Assembly: GCF_000012965.1 (NCBI RefSeq)
Contig: NC_007575.1
Location: forward strand, 1,922,001-1,986,000
DNA: 64,000 bases
From: Sulfurimonas denitrificans DSM 1251
GTDB taxonomy: Bacteria; Campylobacterota; Campylobacteria; Campylobacterales; Sulfurimonadaceae
Direction of reading: 5' to 3'
Made by a program: the position numbers and the translations under genes. Of the stretch, positions 37,697-46,504 are shown in pieces. The notes below the pieces were generated by a model that made no database searches, had not been told where the DNA came from, and saw only the letters and a list, made by a program, of their open reading frames with translations. The first letter of the stretch is position 1, and each line of letters begins with the position of its first letter.

Positions 37697-38368
37697 CTAC
37701 TCTACTCTATATCCAAGCCCTTTAACATTTTCTATAACACCTTGATAGAGTTTTTTTCGGATACCTACTACCACCATTCTAATAGCATCATCACTAACAC
37801 TCTCCTCCCAAACGCTATGTTCAATCTGCTCTATACTAACTATAGATTTTCTGTTTTTTAACAAAAGTTCAAGAAGCAAAACCTCTTTTTTTGTTAGTTT
37901 TATACTCTGCTCATCTTTTTTTACTAACTTCTGTTTGTAGTCATACATGTAGCCCTCATTTAAAAAAAACACCTGCTCATCTACTTTAGCTCTACTTGAA
38001 GCTATTGCGACTAAAAATTCATCTATATCTATTGGCTTCTTAAGATAAAAATCAACATTTGACTCTACCGCTCTGTTAATGTACTCTGGGGTATTGTAAG
38101 CTGTCATGACAACTCTCGTGGTACTTGGAGAGAGTAGTGATATCTTTTGCAGAAGATGCAAACCATCGACTTGTGGCATCTGGATATCTGAGATGATAAC
38201 ATCAGATGGAGTTTGTTCAAAAAGCTCTAAAGCCTCCATGGCATCTTTTGCAACTCTAACCTCTTTGAAATAGATGGACAAAACACGACTAAGCCACTTT
38301 AGAGTGCTCTCATCATCTTCTGCAATCAAAAGAGTAAGGGAGTGTAGTTTTTTATGTATGGCTTGCAT
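37697..38368 (-). CDS. OmpR-type response regulator
   Basis: Receiver domain residues 1-125 have the acidic pair EDD (18-20), phospho-acceptor Asp61 (VIISDIQMP) and Lys near 112 (FYLKKPIDIDEF). The C-terminal domain is a winged helix (LTKKEVLLLELLLKNRKSIVSIEQIEHSVWEE, then VVGIRKKLYQGVIENVKGLGYRV). The gene follows its histidine kinase with one base between them. The target is unknown. Position next to the phosphate block makes it a candidate PhoB-like regulator, without direct evidence. Confidence 0.85.
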   Translation of the reverse strand: MQAIHKKLHSLTLLIAEDDESTLKWLSRVLSIYFKEVRVAKDAMEALELFEQTPSDVIISDIQMPQVDGLHLLQKISLLSPSTTRVVMTAYNTPEYINRAVESNVDFYLKKPIDIDEFLVAIASSRAKVDEQVFFLNEGYMYDYKQKLVKKDEQSIKLTKKEVLLLELLLKNRKSIVSIEQIEHSVWEESVSDDAIRMVVVGIRKKLYQGVIENVKGLGYRVE

Positions 38369-38369
38369 C

Positions 38370-39797
38370 TTAATAACCTTTTTTTAGCATAATAGTAAAC
38401 TTCGCACCATCTTTAGTGTTTTTGACCCTCAAGAGTCCATTCATGTGGCTCTCTATAATCACTTTTGACATATAAAGCCCTATTCCGCTTCCTTTATCTT
38501 TTGTTGTAAAGTATGGATTAAATATCTTTGGCATATCCTCTTTAGAGATTCCTCCACCATTATCAACTATCTCTATTTGAAAATTCTCTTTTACTCTTTT
38601 TATGAGTATCCCTATTTTGCCATTTTGCACACTTCTTGAGACTATCGCCATCATTGCATTATTTATCATATTTAATATAACTTGCCTAAACTCATTTGCA
38701 AAACCTAAAATGCTCAAATCTAAGCTCTCATCTTTTGTTATCTCTATAGCAATAGTATAGTTTTTCAGTTGTATCTCTATAAGTCTTATGGCATCTTCTA
38801 TGCTTTGTAAAAGGTTAAAACTCTCTTTTTGCTTAGTTATCCTAAAGAAGACACTAAAGTCATCAATGGTTTGGGACATGTAGTTTAGTTTTTGCATCAT
38901 TTCTGCTTCTATCTCTTTTAAAAACTTAACATCTATATTTTTCTGGCTTGAGATATGTCTTAGCCCTTGGACTATGATGCCAAGGCTATTTAGCGGTTGC
39001 CTCCATTGGTGGGCAATAGAATCTATCATCTCGCCCATAGCAGCTAGTCTTGACTGATGACACATTATCTCATGTTGCTGGGTTCTTTTTGCGACTTCTA
39101 TCTCAACTTGTTTTTTTAGTTTGTCTTGGTACATAATATCTTCTGTAATATCTGAAGTTATCATGATAATTTCATCTCTGCTTTGCAGATATGCCAAAGA
39201 CATACTAGCGTTTATATGGATGCCAGACTTTGTAACACAAACTTTTTTAAACTTCTCAAAACTTCCAAACTCTATCGCTTTTTCAACTGCAGTTTTTGAT
39301 GGAGCTGCGTACTCAGCAGATGAGAGAGAGATACATGAGTGGCTATATAACTCCTCCATCGTGTACTCCATCATATTTTGAAAGAACTTGTTCGCATATA
39401 AAAACATTCCATTTCTATCTAGGATAGAAATTCCGTTTGCAGCAAGATCAAAAACTGCTTGAAGCTCCTCTTTTTTAGAAGTAAGTTCGCCCAAACTCTG
39501 TTTTAGTTTTGATTCAACTTCAAAGTAGGATGTAATATCGTAAAAGTAAAAGATATTAGAGTTAAAATAAACCTCATACTCTCGTCCATCCCAGCTAATA
39601 TTGCAGCTCTTAGACTTTTTTTTCTTAAGTTTTTTAACTCTCTTGTAAGCCTTTGCATCAAAGATATCTTTTAGCTTTTGATATTTTAATTTTTTTAAAC
39701 TCTTTTTTCCACCATAAACACCAAGAACCACCTTTCCATCACTCTTTAGAACAATTGATTTTGGCATATTTTTTAAAATATCTAATTTTTTCATCAT
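38370..39797 (-). CDS. Cytoplasmic PAS sensor histidine kinase
   Basis: The 475-residue protein has no membrane helix. Residues 105-225 form a PAS-like sensor (FDLAANGISILDRNGMFLYANKFFQNM). The kinase core has H-box AHQWRQPLNSLG, N-box MINNAMMAI, and G-boxes DNGGGISKEDMPKIF and KGSGIGLYMS. An N-terminal 100-residue region is of unknown type. It shares a promoter-side gap of 97 bases with the porin gene, which has a hairpin at 39851-39880. The signal is likely cytoplasmic, such as redox or energy state. Confidence 0.84.
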   Translation of the reverse strand: MMKKLDILKNMPKSIVLKSDGKVVLGVYGGKKSLKKLKYQKLKDIFDAKAYKRVKKLKKKKSKSCNISWDGREYEVYFNSNIFYFYDITSYFEVESKLKQSLGELTSKKEELQAVFDLAANGISILDRNGMFLYANKFFQNMMEYTMEELYSHSCISLSSAEYAAPSKTAVEKAIEFGSFEKFKKVCVTKSGIHINASMSLAYLQSRDEIIMITSDITEDIMYQDKLKKQVEIEVAKRTQQHEIMCHQSRLAAMGEMIDSIAHQWRQPLNSLGIIVQGLRHISSQKNIDVKFLKEIEAEMMQKLNYMSQTIDDFSVFFRITKQKESFNLLQSIEDAIRLIEIQLKNYTIAIEITKDESLDLSILGFANEFRQVILNMINNAMMAIVSRSVQNGKIGILIKRVKENFQIEIVDNGGGISKEDMPKIFNPYFTTKDKGSGIGLYMSKVIIESHMNGLLRVKNTKDGAKFTIMLKKGY

Positions 39798-39894: not shown

Positions 39895-41085
39895 CTACCA
39901 ATGAACCTCAGCAGTAAGCATTACAGAATCCCAGTCTTTAGAGTTACTCTCCTCAATGTTATATGATTGACCTGAAAGCAACCATTTAAAGTTTCTGTTT
40001 TGTTGCCATGCAACACCGTAAATAGCATTCTCTTCAGTTGAAGCAACTACACCCGTTGTTGTATTTTCATTTTCCCACTCATCATAACGAGCAAAAGCGG
40101 AGAACTGTTTTTTCTCGCCAAAACGATAAGTACCGTTTACTGAGTAACCTTGTCCATTCCAGTTGCTGTCATTTGCAAGATCGTTATCAGAAGTTACATA
40201 CTGAGCTGAAATTAAGAATGACGGGTTGTTATAAACTGTATGCAAACCATAAAATTTATAATTCTCAGACTTACCTAATGAGTTGGCATTATGAGAGTTA
40301 TCCATGTTGTATTGACCAAAAAATGATGCATCAAAATAGCTGTCTTTTAACGGTTTTCTCTTTTTATCGCCGTTACCAAGTAGGGCAGCAGTTAATCTCC
40401 ACTCAGCAGATACACCATCACCTAACTCCTCATCATTAGCACCCGAGCTATCGTTAGTACCGTGATAACCTTCGCCGTTAAATATACCAAGTTCAGATGT
40501 AAAGTAAGGAGTTTTTGTTTTAAAATTAACACCCAAATCTGCCGAATTAGTAAGATGTGCTGCTTCATCAGCCTCTACGAATACTTTAGAGATAGAACGC
40601 ATCCACCAACCTTGGTGCTCTTCATAGTCAATCCAAGGACGGTGAGCCATACCAAATTCAACACCTGTATAAGGTAAAATATCATTTAAATAAAGGTAAG
40701 CATACTTAACAAAAACATCAGCATGTCCACCTGAGTTAGCTGTTGAGTTTGAGTAAGTCCCATCTAATGTTACACGCACGTAGCTCTTTGGATCATCCAT
40801 AACATAAGCTTTTACTTGAACATAGTTTCTACGCATTTCAAAATTATTAGTCGTATCTCCGCTTTTCATATTTTTATTGATAAAACCTAAATAGTGAGTA
40901 CCGCTAAACTCTAACTTTGAGCTTTTTGCAAAAACTGAAGTCTCGTCATTTTTTATAGCAATGCGATCTGCAGCAGATGTTGTGAAAACTTGACCTTTGT
41001 CATCTACATAAAACTGCTGTGAAGCACTTAAGCTAGTTGCACTAACCGCTAAAGCAGCTATAGTTGATAAAACAATTTTTTTCAT
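39895..41085 (-). CDS. Outer-membrane porin, predicted phosphate-starvation porin
   Basis: The 396-residue protein has a signal peptide (MKKIVLSTIAALAVSATSLSA), then alternating beta-strands with aromatic girdles and a terminal Trp-containing strand (SVMLTAEVHW), like OprO/OprP-type porins. It follows the pattern LEFSGTHYLGFINKNM and YGLHTVYNNPSFLISAQYV. Upstream, TGTAAT-like direct repeats 11 bases apart and a TATAAT (41114-41119) match the pstS and pstC promoters, so I predict phosphate import across the outer membrane. The substrate is inferred from regulation only. Confidence 0.75.
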   Translation of the reverse strand: MKKIVLSTIAALAVSATSLSASQQFYVDDKGQVFTTSAADRIAIKNDETSVFAKSSKLEFSGTHYLGFINKNMKSGDTTNNFEMRRNYVQVKAYVMDDPKSYVRVTLDGTYSNSTANSGGHADVFVKYAYLYLNDILPYTGVEFGMAHRPWIDYEEHQGWWMRSISKVFVEADEAAHLTNSADLGVNFKTKTPYFTSELGIFNGEGYHGTNDSSGANDEELGDGVSAEWRLTAALLGNGDKKRKPLKDSYFDASFFGQYNMDNSHNANSLGKSENYKFYGLHTVYNNPSFLISAQYVTSDNDLANDSNWNGQGYSVNGTYRFGEKKQFSAFARYDEWENENTTTGVVASTEENAIYGVAWQQNRNFKWLLSGQSYNIEESNSKDWDSVMLTAEVHW

Positions 41086-41113: not shown

Positions 41114-41146
41114 ATTATAAAATTATTAGATTACGAAAACATTACA
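41114..41146 (-). promoter_or_regulatory. Pho-box-like promoter of the porin gene
   Basis: On the minus strand: TGTAAT (41146-41141), five bases, CGTAAT (41135-41130), ten bases, TATAAT (41119-41114). The box edge is 44 bases from the porin ATG. The 11-base repeat period and fixed distance to the -10 box are typical of PhoB-type activators replacing a -35 box. Confidence 0.65.
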
Positions 41147-41184
41147 ATCTTTGCAAGAAAATAAAAAGATTTTAAAACGAAAAT

Positions 41185-41216
41185 AAGCCACACTATTTGA
41201 GAAGATAGTGTGGCTT
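41185..41216 (-). terminator. Terminator of pstS
   Basis: AAGCCACACTAT and ATAGTGTGGCTT are perfect 12-bp arms with an 8-base loop. On the minus strand ATTTTCGTTTTAAAATC follows. It lies about 50 bases after the pstS stop. Confidence 0.7.
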
Positions 41217-41268
41217 GTAGGAGATTTTCTTAGGAGAGAAAAATTGTTACAACACTACATGTAGCTGG

Positions 41269-42273
41269 TTATTTTATATTAGTTGTCCAATACTCTTTAA
41301 TCATATTTTTAGTCTCCTCAGGAAGAGGAATATAACCTAACTTTTTAGCTGATTCGTCACCGTTTTTAAATGCGTAATCATAAAAAGCTATTACCTTTTT
41401 ATTCATATCGCCGCCTTCTCTAGGAAGAAGTATGAATGTAGCCGCAACGATTGGGTAAGATGTATCACCTTGCTGCAGTGCTAAAACAGAGTAAAAGTGC
41501 TCCGCTTTTGTCCAAGTAGCATATTTTGCAGCAGCTTTGAAGTTCTCTTCTGTTGCTTTTACCCATTTTCCATTAGCAGTTTTTAAAATAGCCGCACTTA
41601 GGTTATTTTTCTCTTTATAAGCATTTTCTATGTATCCGATTGAGTAAGGAGTCTGCTTAAGCAAACTTGCTACACCTTCATTGCCTTTTGCGCCTATTCC
41701 AGTAGCCCAGTCAATCGTCTTACCTGTTCCGAAACTCTCTTTCCAATTTTTAGAACTTTGTGTCAGATAATACGTAAAGTTAAAAGTTGTTCCGCTTCCA
41801 TCCGAACGGTGTACAACTATGATTTTTTGATTTGGAAGATTAAGCCCTTGATTATCCACTGCGATAGCTTTATCATTCCACATTGTAATTTTTCCTGCAA
41901 AAATATCTGCTACAACTTCATTGCTAAGCTTAAGAGTTTCATCAGCAACTCCATCTACGTTAAATGCAACTACGATTGAACCAATCACTGCTGGAAACTG
42001 AAATAGGTTATCCTTTGCAAGTGCTAACGTGCTTAGAGCTTCATCAGATGCACCAAACTCAACAACTCTTTTTGCGATTTGCTTGATTCCTCCGCCTGAA
42101 CCTATTGACTGATAATTTACAAGATTTGTTGTATCTTTTTTATAGTTATATGCCCAATCATAATATAGAGGAGCAGGAAACGAGGCACCTGCACCGTTTA
42201 TCTTATCCGACGCAAATGAAGAACTAATTGATGCTGCTGCAACCAAAGTAACTAAAGCTAATTTCTTTAACAT
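41269..42273 (-). CDS. pstS: Phosphate ABC transporter substrate-binding protein
   Basis: The 334-residue PstS has a signal peptide (LVTLVAAASISSSFA) and the phosphate-binding segments GAGASFPAPLY, QSIGSGGGIKQI, FGASDEAL and VHRSDGSGTTFNFTYYL. Periplasmic binding protein feeding PstCAB. Unlike most pst operons, pstS is transcribed away from pstCAB, with ppk2 between. Its own Pho-box-like promoter is at 42301-42333, and a strong terminator follows at 41185-41216. Confidence 0.95.
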   Translation of the reverse strand: MLKKLALVTLVAAASISSSFASDKINGAGASFPAPLYYDWAYNYKKDTTNLVNYQSIGSGGGIKQIAKRVVEFGASDEALSTLALAKDNLFQFPAVIGSIVVAFNVDGVADETLKLSNEVVADIFAGKITMWNDKAIAVDNQGLNLPNQKIIVVHRSDGSGTTFNFTYYLTQSSKNWKESFGTGKTIDWATGIGAKGNEGVASLLKQTPYSIGYIENAYKEKNNLSAAILKTANGKWVKATEENFKAAAKYATWTKAEHFYSVLALQQGDTSYPIVAATFILLPREGGDMNKKVIAFYDYAFKNGDESAKKLGYIPLPEETKNMIKEYWTTNIK

Positions 42274-42300
42274 TTGTTTTCCTTTTTGAATGTTTAAGAA

Positions 42301-42333
42301 ATTATAATGGCTCCTTATTACAAGATGATTACA
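42301..42333 (-). promoter_or_regulatory. Pho-box-like promoter of pstS
   Basis: On the minus strand: TGTAAT (42333-42328), five bases, TGTAAT (42322-42317), ten bases, TATAAT (42306-42301). The box edge is 43 bases from the pstS ATG. It begins four bases after the ppk2 stop. Confidence 0.7.
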
Positions 42334-42337
42334 GCTA

Positions 42338-43192
42338 CTACTTGTTCTTTGGCGAAAACTTAAATTTACTCTCCATGGCTATTGCTTCATCTCTGCCATA
42401 TACTATAATATCTCTATCTACCTCTATTTGAGTATTATCTATCTTATTTGGATAATCAACAAAGTTTAAAATATGCTTGATTGTATTGATTCTAGCTTTT
42501 TTCTTATTGTCACTTTTTACAACTGTCCATGGAGCGGTCTCTGTGTGTGTTGCGCTTAACATCATGTACTTTGCAAGAGCATACTCATCCCATAAATCTT
42601 GAGCTTTTAAATCAACATCAGATAATTTGTACTGCTTAAGAGGATCTTGCTCTCTTTGTGCAAATCTTCTTTTTTGCTCCTCTTTTGTTACTGAAAAATA
42701 GAATTTAAATATTTTTATATCCTCTTCTACTATCATCTTCTCAAACTGTGGTGCGTCTTTTAAAAACTTATGATGCTCCCTCTCGCTACAAAATCCCATA
42801 ACAGGCTCAACCATAGCTCTGTTGTACCAACTTCTATCAAAAAGAACTATCTCTCCAGCACTTGGCAAATTTGCTGCGTATCTTTGAAAATACCACTGTG
42901 TTCGTTCTTGATCACTTGGTTTTGTAAGTGCTACAACTCTAGCACCTCTTGGATTTAGATGCTCAGTTATTCTCTTAATCGTACCGCCCTTTCCAGCAGC
43001 ATCACGCCCCTCAAAAATCATAAGAACTTTAAGTCCATTCTCTTTTACATGATTTTGAAATTTAAGCAGTTCAATTTGAAGTTTTTCCAACTCCTTCTCA
43101 TAAAGCAGTGTCTCTTTCTTTACCCAAATCTTTATCTTCTCATCTTTTTTATTTTCTTTTTTTTCTATTTTTGTTTTAGATTTTTCTCTCAT
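42338..43192 (-). CDS. ppk2: Polyphosphate kinase 2
   Basis: The 284-residue PPK2-family kinase has Walker A GRDAAGKGGTI, the lid segment PRGARVVALTKPSDQERTQWYFQRY, Walker B-like VLFDRSWYNRAMVEPVMGF, and VTKEEQKRRFAQREQDPLKQYKLS. PPK2 enzymes use polyphosphate to phosphorylate nucleotides. A charged Lys-rich N-terminal 25 residues precede the domain. The gene sits inside the phosphate block, divergent from pstC, so polyphosphate turnover may be tied to phosphate supply. Confidence 0.92.
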   Translation of the reverse strand: MREKSKTKIEKKENKKDEKIKIWVKKETLLYEKELEKLQIELLKFQNHVKENGLKVLMIFEGRDAAGKGGTIKRITEHLNPRGARVVALTKPSDQERTQWYFQRYAANLPSAGEIVLFDRSWYNRAMVEPVMGFCSEREHHKFLKDAPQFEKMIVEEDIKIFKFYFSVTKEEQKRRFAQREQDPLKQYKLSDVDLKAQDLWDEYALAKYMMLSATHTETAPWTVVKSDNKKKARINTIKHILNFVDYPNKIDNTQIEVDRDIIVYGRDEAIAMESKFKFSPKNK

Positions 43193-43235
43193 AAATAACT
43201 CCTTTTAAAGAAGTATATAAAAAAAATCTTACTTT

Positions 43236-43268
43236 TGTAATCTTTTTGTAATCAAAGAAACATAAAAT
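43236..43268 (+). promoter_or_regulatory. Pho-box-like promoter of pstC
   Basis: TGTAAT (43236-43241), five bases, TGTAAT (43247-43252), ten bases, TAAAAT (43263-43268) on the plus strand. The box edge is 47 bases from the pstC TTG. It lies in the divergent gap and could also affect ppk2. Confidence 0.7.
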
Positions 43269-43299: not shown

Positions 43300-44157
43300 T
43301 TGAGTATTTTTATAGATAAATTTTTTGCAAACATAACAAAACTTATCGCTTTTAGTATCTTATTGCTTGTTGCTTGGATATTTACTATACTTTTTGAATA
43401 CTCTCTAGAATCGATAAAAGCATTTGGTTTTCTTTTTATTACAGAGGATAAATGGGCACCAAACTTAGAAAAATTTGGTGCTCTTCCTGCTATTTACGGT
43501 TCAGTTGTATCCACTTTTTTAGCAATGATTTTAGCTGTACCCATCGCTATTGGTGTTGCAATTTTTCTAAGTGAGATAGCTCACGCAAAGCTTAAAGCTA
43601 CAGTTGGCGTATCGATAGAACTTCTCGCTGCTATTCCATCTGTTGTCTATGGTATGTGGGGACTTTTTTACTTTGTGCCTATTATTCGTGATATATTTGG
43701 CGGAATCGGAATCAGCATGCTGAGTGCTGGTATTGTTCTTAGCATTATGATTTTACCTTTTATGGCAGCTGTTACTCGTGATGCAATGAACACAACTCCA
43801 GATATTTTAAAAGAGTCTGCTTATGCTCTTGGCTCAACCAAATGGAATGTTGTTAAAGATATTATCATTCCTTACGCAAAGGCTGGAATTATCGGCTCAT
43901 TTATATTGGCTCTTGGTCGTGCTATTGGCGAAACAATGGCTGTAACATTTGTTATGGGCAACGTCCATAAAATCTCAACAGATTTGACACAACCAGCAAC
44001 ATCAATTCCTGTAACACTTGCAAATGAGTTCGCAGAGGCCAATAGCACTCTTTACTACTCATCTCTTTTTGAACTCTCTTTACTTCTTTTAGTGGTTAGC
44101 TTTACAATTATTTCCATAGCTAAGTTCTACTTTTTACGCAGAAGAAAGGCTCTATAA
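43300..44157 (+). CDS. pstC: Phosphate ABC transporter permease PstC
   Basis: The 285-residue permease has about six membrane helices, the permease loop ALGRAIGETMAVTFVMG and upstream ALGSTKWNVVKDIIIP. The TTG start at 43300 has AAAGGGG eight bases upstream, and no better start exists nearby. pstA starts inside its stop (TAATG). Together with PstA it forms the membrane channel for phosphate. Confidence 0.93.
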   Translation: MSIFIDKFFANITKLIAFSILLLVAWIFTILFEYSLESIKAFGFLFITEDKWAPNLEKFGALPAIYGSVVSTFLAMILAVPIAIGVAIFLSEIAHAKLKATVGVSIELLAAIPSVVYGMWGLFYFVPIIRDIFGGIGISMLSAGIVLSIMILPFMAAVTRDAMNTTPDILKESAYALGSTKWNVVKDIIIPYAKAGIIGSFILALGRAIGETMAVTFVMGNVHKISTDLTQPATSIPVTLANEFAEANSTLYYSSLFELSLLLLVVSFTIISIAKFYFLRRRKAL

Positions 44158-45002
44158 TGACATACACTCAAAAAAGAATCATAATAAATAAAGCAGTAAT
44201 GACGCTCTCTACGCTCTGTGCTATTATTGGAATGGGCTTTTTATTTTGGATTTTAAGCGTTCTTGTTATCAATGGTATTGATGCACTGAGTGCAAATATC
44301 TTTTTAAATGAAGGTGCCCCTCCTGGAAATGATCAAGGCGGTTTAAAACATGCACTTATAGGACAGCTTTATCTCGTTGGTTACGCTTCTATTTTTGGTG
44401 TTCCGCTTGGAATATTGGCTGGTACATACCTTAGTGAATATAGTCAAAAATCAAAAATAGCAGAGGTAGTACGTGATATCTCAGATATTATGATGTCTGC
44501 ACCTTCGATTGTTATTGGTGCTTTTGTTTATGCGGTAGTTGTAACTCCAATGGGACACTTTAGCGGTTGGGCAGGTTCAATAGCTCTGACAATCATAATG
44601 CTACCTATTATCCTAAGAACAACAGATGATATGCTTCAACTTGTTCCATCAACACTAAGAGAAGCCGCATTTGCGCTTGGTGCGCCTAAGTACAAAGTAA
44701 TTATTCAAGTTGTTTATCGTGGGGCAAAAGCTGGTATTTTAACAGGAATTTTACTTGGAGTAGCACGTGTAGCAGGAGAGACTGCTCCGCTTCTTTTTAC
44801 ATCTTTTAATGATAATTTTTTAAATACAGACATGATGCAACCTATGGCATCACTTACCGTAACTATGTACAACTATGCCTCAAGTCCTTATGAAGATTGG
44901 CAACAACTTGGCTGGGCAGCTGCTTTTATACTTAGCATGTTCATCTTAACACTAAATATTTTAGGAAGACTATTTTTACTCAAAAAGAGAGGCAAACATT
45001 AA
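44157..45002 (+). CDS. pstA: Phosphate ABC transporter permease PstA
   Basis: The 281-residue permease has the [46 protein letters not shown] loop (key residues E, A, G of the EAA motif) and six helices. It overlaps pstC and pstB by one base each (TAATG), so translation is coupled. It is the second pore subunit of the phosphate importer. Confidence 0.93.
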
Positions 45003-45787
45003 TGGCAACAATAATTGAAATAAATAAAAAAAAAGCACTTGAAGTTAAAAACTTTGAATTTACCTATGCGAAAGCAGATGTACCAAGTGTAAAAAAACTA
45101 TCTATGCCTGTGGCAAAACATAACATAACTGCTCTTATTGGACCATCAGGATGTGGAAAAACAACTCTTCTTAGAAGTTTTAACCGTATGCATGATTTAT
45201 ATCCAAACAACAAATATTCAGGCGAAATTACTTTTAAAGATAGAAATATTTTAACATCAAAAGAGGATTTGATAAAACTTAGAATTCAAATAGGGATGAT
45301 TTTTCAAAAACCGACCGCTTTTCCAATGAGTATCTTTGATAATGTTGCTTATGGACTAAAACTTCAGGGTATAAAAAACAGAACTGAACTTAGTGGCAGA
45401 GTTGAAAAAGCGCTCAAAGATGCAGCTATTTGGAATGAAGTAAAAGATAGGCTAAAACATGATGCAAATGGCTTGTCTGGTGGTCAGCAACAAAGACTCT
45501 GCATAGCCAGAGCCGTCGCTGTTGAGCCAGAAGTTCTACTCTTTGATGAGCCAACCTCCGCACTTGATCCTATCTCAACAGGCGGGATTGAAGAACTTAT
45601 CGTTGAACTAAGAGAGAGAGTCTCTATCATAATTGTTACGCACAATATGCAACAAGCTGCCAGAGTTAGTGACTACACTGGATTTATGTACCTTGGAGAG
45701 CTAATTGAACTTGGCAAAACAGAAGAGATATTTGTAACACCTAAAGAGAAATTAACAGAAGAGTATATAACTGGAAAATTTGGTTGA
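45002..45787 (+). CDS. pstB: Phosphate ABC transporter ATP-binding protein PstB
   Basis: The 261-residue ATPase has Walker [23 protein letters not shown], signature [14 protein letters not shown], Walker [13 protein letters not shown] and the switch His (VTHNMQQA). It drives phosphate import through PstCA and is the energy unit that likely also signals phosphate state. The N-terminal 15 residues are longer than in E. coli PstB. phoU follows 45 bases later. Confidence 0.95.
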
Positions 45788-45832: not shown

Positions 45833-46504
45833 ATGGGAACAAAATATCATGAAAGAATAAACTTTATAAAAGATAAACTATCACTTCTTTTAAAAGATAT
45901 CATAGCTGCTGATGAACTGTCATTGGAGGCATTTAAGAGTGATGATGCAAATAAATTCAAAGAAGTTGAAACATTGTTAGCAAAGATAGGATTAATAGGC
46001 GATGAGATTGACAATGAAGTAATAAAAACATTTGCACTTTTTGGACCTGAAGCTAATGAACTCCGCTTTTTAATAACATTTTTAAAAATGACAAATGAGC
46101 TTATAAGCATTGGAGGAGGAGTAAAAAAATATGCACGCAGAATGAGCGAACACTCAAAGAGCGGATGTACTATTGAGCCATTCAAGCCTAGTATCTTACT
46201 GCTTCATAAAAGCAGTATAAATGCACTTAAATATATTTTAGAGTGTTTTACAAATATTCAAGAGTGCAATTATGAGGATAATTACAGAAAAGTTCTTGTT
46301 GAAGAGAGTATGAATGATGATCTTTTTTCTGTGCTTGAAAAAGAGATATTAAATAAAATAATTGATGAAAAAGAGCTCTCAATTGAGTATGTAAAAGTGC
46401 TTGGCAGTTTAAGAAAACTAGAGAGATCCTGTGACAGATCAGTAAATATTGCCAACCTTATGATGTACGCAAAATTGGGCGGAGAGATTAAATTTTTTCA
46501 GTGA
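45833..46504 (+). CDS. phoU: PhoU-like phosphate regulator
   Basis: The 223-residue helical protein has two PhoU-type repeats, with acidic metal-binding stretches (EVETLLAKIGLIGDEIDNEVIKTF and LEKEILNKIIDEKELSIEYVKVLGSLRKLERSCDRSVNIANLM). PhoU dampens phosphate uptake and signalling in other bacteria. AAAAGG lies before the ATG. It closes the pstCAB operon. Sequence is divergent from E. coli PhoU, so the identity rests on pattern and location. Confidence 0.82.
   Translation: MGTKYHERINFIKDKLSLLLKDIIAADELSLEAFKSDDANKFKEVETLLAKIGLIGDEIDNEVIKTFALFGPEANELRFLITFLKMTNELISIGGGVKKYARRMSEHSKSGCTIEPFKPSILLLHKSSINALKYILECFTNIQECNYEDNYRKVLVEESMNDDLFSVLEKEILNKIIDEKELSIEYVKVLGSLRKLERSCDRSVNIANLMMYAKLGGEIKFFQ

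Follow-up and report, generated by a model that had tools for sequence, protein, structure and literature searches.

In this study, we analysed 64,000 nucleotides of the environmental sulfur oxidiser Sulfurimonas denitrificans DSM 1251 (hereafter the window; G000:C1:1922001-1986000 of a genome which is a single contig of 2,201,561 bases), and found that a porin gene, pstS and pstC are each preceded by the same kind of promoter site. With high probability these three sites are the Pho boxes of a PhoB-type regulon covering pstS, pstCAB(-phoU) and the porin, and a distant PhoB/PhoR-like pair is the most likely regulator. Judged by sequence comparison, they represent a true Pho-box set, well conserved and slightly shifted in its consensus, and the original prediction, a note made from the DNA letters of the window, was very likely right in assigning the set to phosphate uptake. 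Its reading of the sites as PhoB-class Pho boxes is supported by conservation at pst genes, by a geometry shared with E. coli pstS, and by a class-wide link between PhoB and PstC. As in other PhoB-class Pho boxes, there are two 11-base direct repeats, a fixed spacing to the -10 element in place of a -35 element, and a placement at phosphate genes. The sites, their rarity, their geometry, their conservation at phosphate genes and the PhoB-pst link are direct observations.

Three similar promoters at the pst locus

On the minus strand, the locus contains the porin gene (39895-41085), pstS (41269-42273) and a PPK2 gene (42338-43192), and on the plus strand pstC (43300-44157) is followed by pstA, pstB and a PhoU-like gene. 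The motif TGTAAT-N5-(T/C)GTAAT-N10-TAWAAT stands before porin, pstS and pstC exactly as predicted, right to the base and including the CGTAAT of the porin. The porin site (41114-41146, minus strand) consists of the box TGTAAT-GTTTT-CGTAAT (41130-41146), in which CGTAAT is the only mismatch to the full motif, and of a -10 element TATAAT (41114-41119) ten bases after the box. The pstS site (42301-42333, minus strand; box TGTAAT-CATCT-TGTAAT at 42317-42333, TATAAT at 42301-42306) and the pstC site (43236-43268, plus strand; box TGTAAT-CTTTT-TGTAAT at 43236-43252, TAAAAT at 43263-43268) have no mismatch. The 17-base repeat lies 44 (porin), 43 (pstS) and 47 (pstC) bases from the start codon, identical on re-measurement to the predicted distances, and the -10 element lies 28, 27 and 31 bases from it. 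What had been called a shared promoter is instead three separate promoters, each with the same box, and a weak terminator-like hairpin (41185-41216, minus strand) between the end of pstS and the porin promoter separates the two. The hairpin scan found two terminator-like hairpins versus 1.4 expected in shuffles, so this feature is weak when taken alone.

With up to three mismatches, the window contains four matches to the full motif, of which the fourth has three mismatches; shuffled sequences gave 0.82 on average and at most 3. The bare repeat pair without the -10 element showed no excess over chance in the window (9 matches at up to two mismatches, 14.7 expected), and thus the force of the motif lies in its near-exact match, its -10 register and its position before genes. 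At the base composition of the window, 0.0033 exact full-motif matches are expected in 2.2 Mb, and two were found. When one mismatch is allowed, the porin, pstS and pstC sites are the only ones in the whole genome, with four further sites at two mismatches. Looser searches gave 37 sites at up to three mismatches versus 22 for the reversed pattern, and 26 sites versus 23 in the reversed control for a fuller pattern with Y at base 6 and C at base 7, to which the porin site has two mismatches. Since these loose matches approach their controls, no weight was put on them.

Conservation in the genus and the class

Matches to the motif with up to two mismatches were found in 133 of 135 genomes of the genus, a loose count in which chance matches are included; the first 31 of these genomes gave 202 matches versus 60 for the reversed pattern. 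For a closer view we used 20 stretches from 17 genus genomes, selected where motif matches cluster, so that the contrast between genes is informative and the raw rate is not. In these stretches a box with at most one mismatch lies upstream of PstS in 13 of 16 cases, of PstC in 14 of 15 and of the porin in 13 of 13, the porin being the gene which best matches that of the window (in six cases the match is limited to a short stretch or to the N-terminal leader). None was found before PstA (0/16), PstB (0/17), GlnA (0/11), PhoU (0/14) or PPK2 (0/8). PhoB genes carried such a box in two of five cases. Two features which had played no part in selecting the sites also recur: among 74 pooled genus and class sites, selected at up to one hexamer mismatch, 89% have C after the first hexamer, and in 66 of the 73 genus and class sites scored the -10 element lies exactly 10 bases from the box.

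Outside the genus, we sampled 40 pst loci of other genera, picked from the PstC matches in 298 genomes of the class and not by motif. A box of the form GTWWY (A or T at bases 4-5) in exact register was found before PstS, PstC or PhoU in 35 of these 40 genomes (all but G303, G152, G159, G171 and G357), compared with a mean of 0.07 (largest 2, 100 rounds) for base-shuffled upstream regions and 0 of 39 upstream of PstA or PstB.

Finally, 84,980 species genomes were scanned for the exact string TGTAAYC-N4-TGTAAYC-N9-TATAAT, which gave at least 120 stretches, with 80 loci listed. Among the matches listed, 41 of the 80 loci (44 sites, including a few near-duplicates from related bins) belong to Campylobacterota by title, with Hippea and Desulfurellales included; we take Desulfurellales to be Campylobacterota. 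By tblastn, 33 of these 44 listed sites stand before PstS, PstC, porin or PhoU homologues. Seven more stand before PstS-like or porin-like proteins (PF12849 in L243 and L287; Porin_5 in L258, L276 and L290; Porin_O_P in L249; similarity only in L229). Of the remaining four listed, those of L247 and L253 precede small proteins, and behind those of L220 and L251 no open reading frame was found.

The candidate regulator and alternative explanations

Regulators encoded in the pst stretches of relatives (L082, L093 and L095) match one regulator of this genome at 50-66%, compared with 29-33% for the second-best match. This PhoB-like candidate (G000:C1:1633207-1633881) and its kinase (1631819-1633213) are encoded outside the window, 330 kb from the porin and pst genes, and have PhoB and PhoR as their best NCBIfam matches. 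In class loci such as L139, L140, L142, L143 and L174, PhoB orthologues are found in phoU-phoB-phoR beside pst, whereas in this genome phoB-phoR stands alone, away from pst. Across the 298 genomes, a PhoB orthologue is present in 83 of the 84 genomes where PstC matched strongly and in 71 of the 214 others, as counted from PstC and PhoB match lists with cut-offs of E<=1e-66 and E<=1e-45, near the latter of which some PhoB matches may be paralogues. In addition, L093 and L095 carry a one-mismatch box upstream of the regulator gene. The distant PhoB/PhoR-like pair, not the pair beside the porin, is thus probably the regulator of the boxes.

In the mechanism that we propose, low phosphate would cause the PhoR-type kinase to phosphorylate the PhoB-type regulator, both from the pair G000:C1:1631819-1633881. 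Two molecules of the latter would then bind head-to-tail to the 11-base direct repeats (TGTAAYC-N4-TGTAAY), which would serve in place of a -35 element exactly 10 bases before the -10, and in this way bring RNA polymerase to three promoters, one each for pstS, pstCAB(-phoU) and the porin. Binding, activation, phosphate as the signal and passage of phosphate through the porin are what we infer from the arrangement of genes and sites.

Several observations weigh against this reading. The PhoB candidate scores 177.6 bits versus the TIGR02154 cut-off of 296.2, and the PhoR candidate 141 versus 334.2; since the former is below its cut-off, we speak of it as PhoB-like, or as an orthologue judged by its gene neighbourhood. 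In this genome phoB has a degenerate box of its own (two mismatches), and a box with at most one mismatch stands before phoB in only two of eight loci (L178, L183). At the same threshold, only 19 of 34 PstS, 14 of 40 PstC and two of seven porin genes in the class loci have a box, next to 5 of 27 PhoU, 3 of 23 PhoB and 5 of 210 other genes, although these low rates are in part due to variant boxes and shared operons. The fuller pattern is matched better by the site at G000:C1:1121826 (one mismatch; L023:1501-1533, equal to G000:C1:1121826-1121858) than by that of the porin, and inspection of the region downstream showed no phosphate gene. Moreover, 39 of the 80 loci listed in the collection scan (39 sites, mostly Clostridia by title) have no pst, porin or PhoU gene downstream, as judged by tblastn with proteins of this genome, by which distant homologues could be missed. 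The motif is not common at unrelated promoters of this genome at zero or one mismatch, which was the outcome that the original prediction required, yet the same string does precede unrelated genes in Clostridia.

Among the Clostridia, exact TGTAAYC boxes with a -10 element stand before proteins which look conserved and are unrelated to pst (L224:5583-6476, L228:4912-5814, L230:4922-5164 and L242:6690-6932); those of L224 and L230 had no Pfam match. Perhaps this box is the site of another OmpR-class regulator.

The genes behind the porin offer another candidate for the regulator. The second of them encodes an OmpR-type regulator (37697-38368, minus strand; PF00486) which, together with a PAS histidine kinase (38370-39797, minus strand; from the gene listing and family search), might bind the boxes as part of a local phosphate system. 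It is on the same strand, right behind the porin, it is of the right general class, and in G008 about 8 kb separate a homologue of it from the pst genes. However, no more than 5 of 135 genus genomes have it and, among the 17 genus genomes read, only G008 and G009 do, whereas boxes at pst or porin genes are found in most. Furthermore, its recognition helix AIRMVVVGIRKK is without the (N/D)V(A/H)-type core common to the distant regulator and E. coli PhoB, PhoB is not its best family match, and a weak terminator-like hairpin follows the porin. On account of its rarity in the genus, its absence from most boxed loci, its wrong helix and its family, we dismissed this pair and consider its control of the boxes very unlikely.

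Another possibility is a different OmpR-class regulon, such as one of envelope or osmotic stress, to which the boxes would belong and in which pst would be included incidentally. OmpR-class regulators often use direct repeats, the same string precedes unrelated Clostridia proteins among the matches listed, and 18 of 198 other genes in the genus stretches are boxed (1.2 expected from shuffles), including other porin types and acyltransferase genes. Nevertheless, the regulon in relatives is largely phosphate-centred, with pst, porins and a PhoB-like gene (L093, L095), and a boxed gene with two acyltransferase domains, presumably of a phosphate-sparing role as discussed below, recurs in several genomes, and there is little probability left for this explanation. 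Chance similarity of AT-rich promoters, with which the count of bare repeats at two mismatches in the window agrees, is extremely improbable and refuted as far as sequence allows, given an expectation of 0.0033 exact matches genome-wide and the same genes boxed across families.

The porin

The porin of 396 residues, a likely member of the PhoB-type regulon, has no match at E<=0.001 in Pfam or NCBIfam, and PF07396 (phosphate-selective porin) was thus not among its matches. When 24 aligned porin homologues were used for the search, PF07396 was absent from the 25 families listed out of 30; Porin_4 had matches to 2 of 25, the best at 0.00094. A sequence search of the porin family alignment against solved structures found nothing. 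A model built with 13 sequences predicts a barrel of 16 strands at low confidence (mean predicted local distance difference test score, pLDDT, 66.9). General porins head its list of fold matches, in which OprP and OprO hold ranks 7-9. Because the confidence of the model is low and general porins match too, no selectivity can be read from the fold.

In relatives, porins of three kinds are found under the box: homologues of the window porin, Porin_O_P-like proteins, and Porin_5 proteins. The Porin_O_P-like kind is identified by Pfam in L084, L094 and L249, and the protein of L086 is 62% identical to that of L084. The boxed porins of L090, L097 and L229 have no family, but their ends resemble the Porin_O_P-like group, and Porin_5 is found in L082, L085, L091, L093 and others. 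Between the window porin and that of L084, 67% of the first 45 residues are identical and little else is. Of 24 porins inspected, 15 have a leader similar to YxDxxGQVFTxPAxxR, namely seven of eight of the window kind, seven of seven of the second group and one of nine Porin_5 proteins. Since leader and promoter are common to window-type and Porin_O_P-like porins, it seems that both have been kept while the barrel differs.

The presence of a phosphate-selective Pfam family in this slot supports a phosphate role of the slot. The assignment of the porin to phosphate uptake thus holds on the box in the genus loci and on the PF07396 porins in its place, and its own structure lends no support; very probably this porin also works in phosphate uptake. 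In this way a porin of no known family would be tied to phosphate uptake, and with three types of barrel found behind the same kind of promoter, it looks as if regulation had preserved a function while the protein itself was exchanged.

Other genes of the locus and other boxed genes

The remaining genes of the locus are well assigned. PstS, the phosphate-binding protein (41269-42273, minus strand), is above the cut-off of TIGR00975. On the plus strand, pstC (43300-44157, with a TTG start) is above that of TIGR02138, and downstream in its operon are pstA (44157-45002, TIGR00974) and pstB (45002-45787, TIGR00972), both above cut-off as well. The PhoU-like gene after pstB (45833-46504, plus strand) is above the cut-off of PF01895 and below that of the NCBIfam PhoU family. 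We also considered that the pstC box overlaps the promoter of PPK2 and might repress it, and rejected this, as the distance from the box to a TATACT-like -10 element is not kept in relatives.

Of eight further sites inspected in this genome, one is intragenic, and none besides that of ppk1 showed a clear phosphate link, G000:C1:1121826 included. Upstream of ppk1 (L103:5942-8044) is a box with one mismatch when C or T is allowed at the sixth base (L103:5876-5908). Among relatives, a ppk1 box with at most one mismatch was found in 4 of 30 loci (L190, L196, L197, L219), several other loci having two or three mismatches in the N10 register and many having none in place. The ppk1 box is likely restricted to some species. 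In this genome, a near-match with TATAAT in register also lies upstream of a TonB-dependent receptor gene (L105:4156-4188; gene at L105:2140-4125).

In relatives, a boxed gene of about 570 residues was observed repeatedly (L083:15861-17573, L093:13788-15512, L090:3182-4894, L095:14227-15951 and L097:14683-16395); in L093 and L095 a frame of 76 residues lies between the box and this gene. The proteins of L083 and L093, the two tested, have Acyltransf_2 and GNAT domains, a make-up which we take to be that of an ornithine-lipid synthase. If so, it would spare phosphate in membranes. A search for a homologue of this protein in the present genome gave no match, a result which proves little. In L087 (7776-7824), a pyruvate-kinase-domain gene and another gene are separated by two boxes, one on each strand. 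In Hippea and Desulfurellales, the small proteins behind exact boxes (L247:399-602, L253:7118-7318) have 66-67 residues and begin with a signal-like sequence, and their loci also encode a PhoB homologue.

Half-site variants and the recognition helix

Most of the genomes in which the half-site was typed have AA at its bases 4-5. TA occurs at these bases in two f5 genomes and some f4 genomes, TT occurs in the first half-site of five f3 genomes and one f2 genome (for example L159, TGTTTCCATTTTGTTTCCAAGTATAGTTAAAAT), and G344 and G350 have mixed AA/TT sites. By hand count, where the recognition helix is NIA and the site was typed, the first half-site is TT in six of six genomes, compared with none of 25 with an NVA or NVT helix; a seventh NIA genome has no site, and in G143, G226, G272 and G335, which have a site, the helix was not read. 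As the NIA cases come from few lineages, a Fisher value for helix versus half-site overstates their independence. The going together of the NIA helix with the TT half-site may be regarded as a lead. In the literature examined, no published contacts were found for residue 197 of PhoB.

A more speculative and rather doubtful possibility is that the Campylobacterota have a series of Pho-box specificities (AA, TA, TT and mixed) on one geometry, with a change from V to I at PhoB residue 195 (V197 in E. coli) as the main AA-to-TT switch, and with the outer-membrane channel of the same regulon swapped as a cassette, in which promoter, signal peptide and leader are kept and the barrel is replaced by one of a different family. 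The difference from the Campylobacter box thereby becomes a small testable question, that of one residue changing the choice of DNA. Campylobacterota are common in sulfidic habitats, and the sites described here provide a usable Pho-box model for this group together with a named likely regulator in this genome.

Comparison with known Pho boxes and porins

The window porin resembles the phosphate-selective porins OprP and OprO (PF07396) in that the same box stands before members of their family in L084, L094 and L249 and in that both are among its fold matches, but it differs in having no PF07396 match and in that general porins match it as well or better.

The E. coli pstS promoter (MG1655, TGTCATAAAACTGTCATATTCCTTACATATAA) shares with the present sites the 11-base direct repeats, N5 between the hexamers and N10 to the -10 element. 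Unlike the main E. coli motif, which has C as the fourth base of the half-site, the sites here have mainly A; the main E. coli half-site TGTCAT was not found at the present boxes, which have TGTAAT or TGTAAC instead. The recognition helices differ as well, TVNVAINRLK in the PhoB candidate compared with TVDVHIRRLR in E. coli PhoB. In E. coli, phoE is a porin gene. The phoE site TGTAATAAAAGCGTAAAC is close to the porin site here TGTAATGTTTTCGTAATC, and in the excerpted table of PhoB-bound E. coli regions it stands, with yibT TGTAATAGTTCTGTAACG and mglB TGTAACCCGTATGTAACA, among sites of the TGTAAT type next to those of the TGTCAT type (PMC10294691). The Pho box has been described, in an excerpted source, as two 11-base repeats with a species-specific consensus (PMC4415409). 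In an epsilonproteobacterial genome, phoU and phoB adjoin pst, and the excerpted text on it names no box (PMC4674564). We found no description of a Pho box in this lineage in the open-access literature, which leaves most subscription journals outside. Thus the suggestion of an undescribed variant may hold as far as the lineage is concerned, but is to be weakened for the type of site as such, because TGTAAT-type sites are already in the excerpted E. coli PhoB table (PMC10294691).

Phosphate uptake genes of C. jejuni are under the control of PhosS/PhosR, according to excerpts of two papers (PMC3197622, PMC9449129). Five regulators of f3g15 genomes (G238, G260, G287, G315, G391) are 47-50% identical to the PhoB candidate. 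The PhosS/PhosR system was reportedly described by Wosten et al. in 2006, and its PhosR consensus, as we assume it to be, consists of GTTTC repeats with an 11-base period, which fits the TT form of the box. This GTTTC half-site was not found at the boxes in the window, which have GTAAT instead. Like the sites here, the TT/TT boxes of L159 and L163, from f3g15 genomes that would by inference be Campylobacter, are in the same register; unlike them, they read TGTTTCC-N4-TGTTTCY compared with the TGTAAYC half-site, and go with an NIA instead of an NVA helix. The predicted difference from the C. jejuni PhosR box is therefore borne out in part, by the TT form in Campylobacter-like genomes, but mixed sites join the two forms, so that the box of S. 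denitrificans and that of Campylobacter are better seen as variants of one design.

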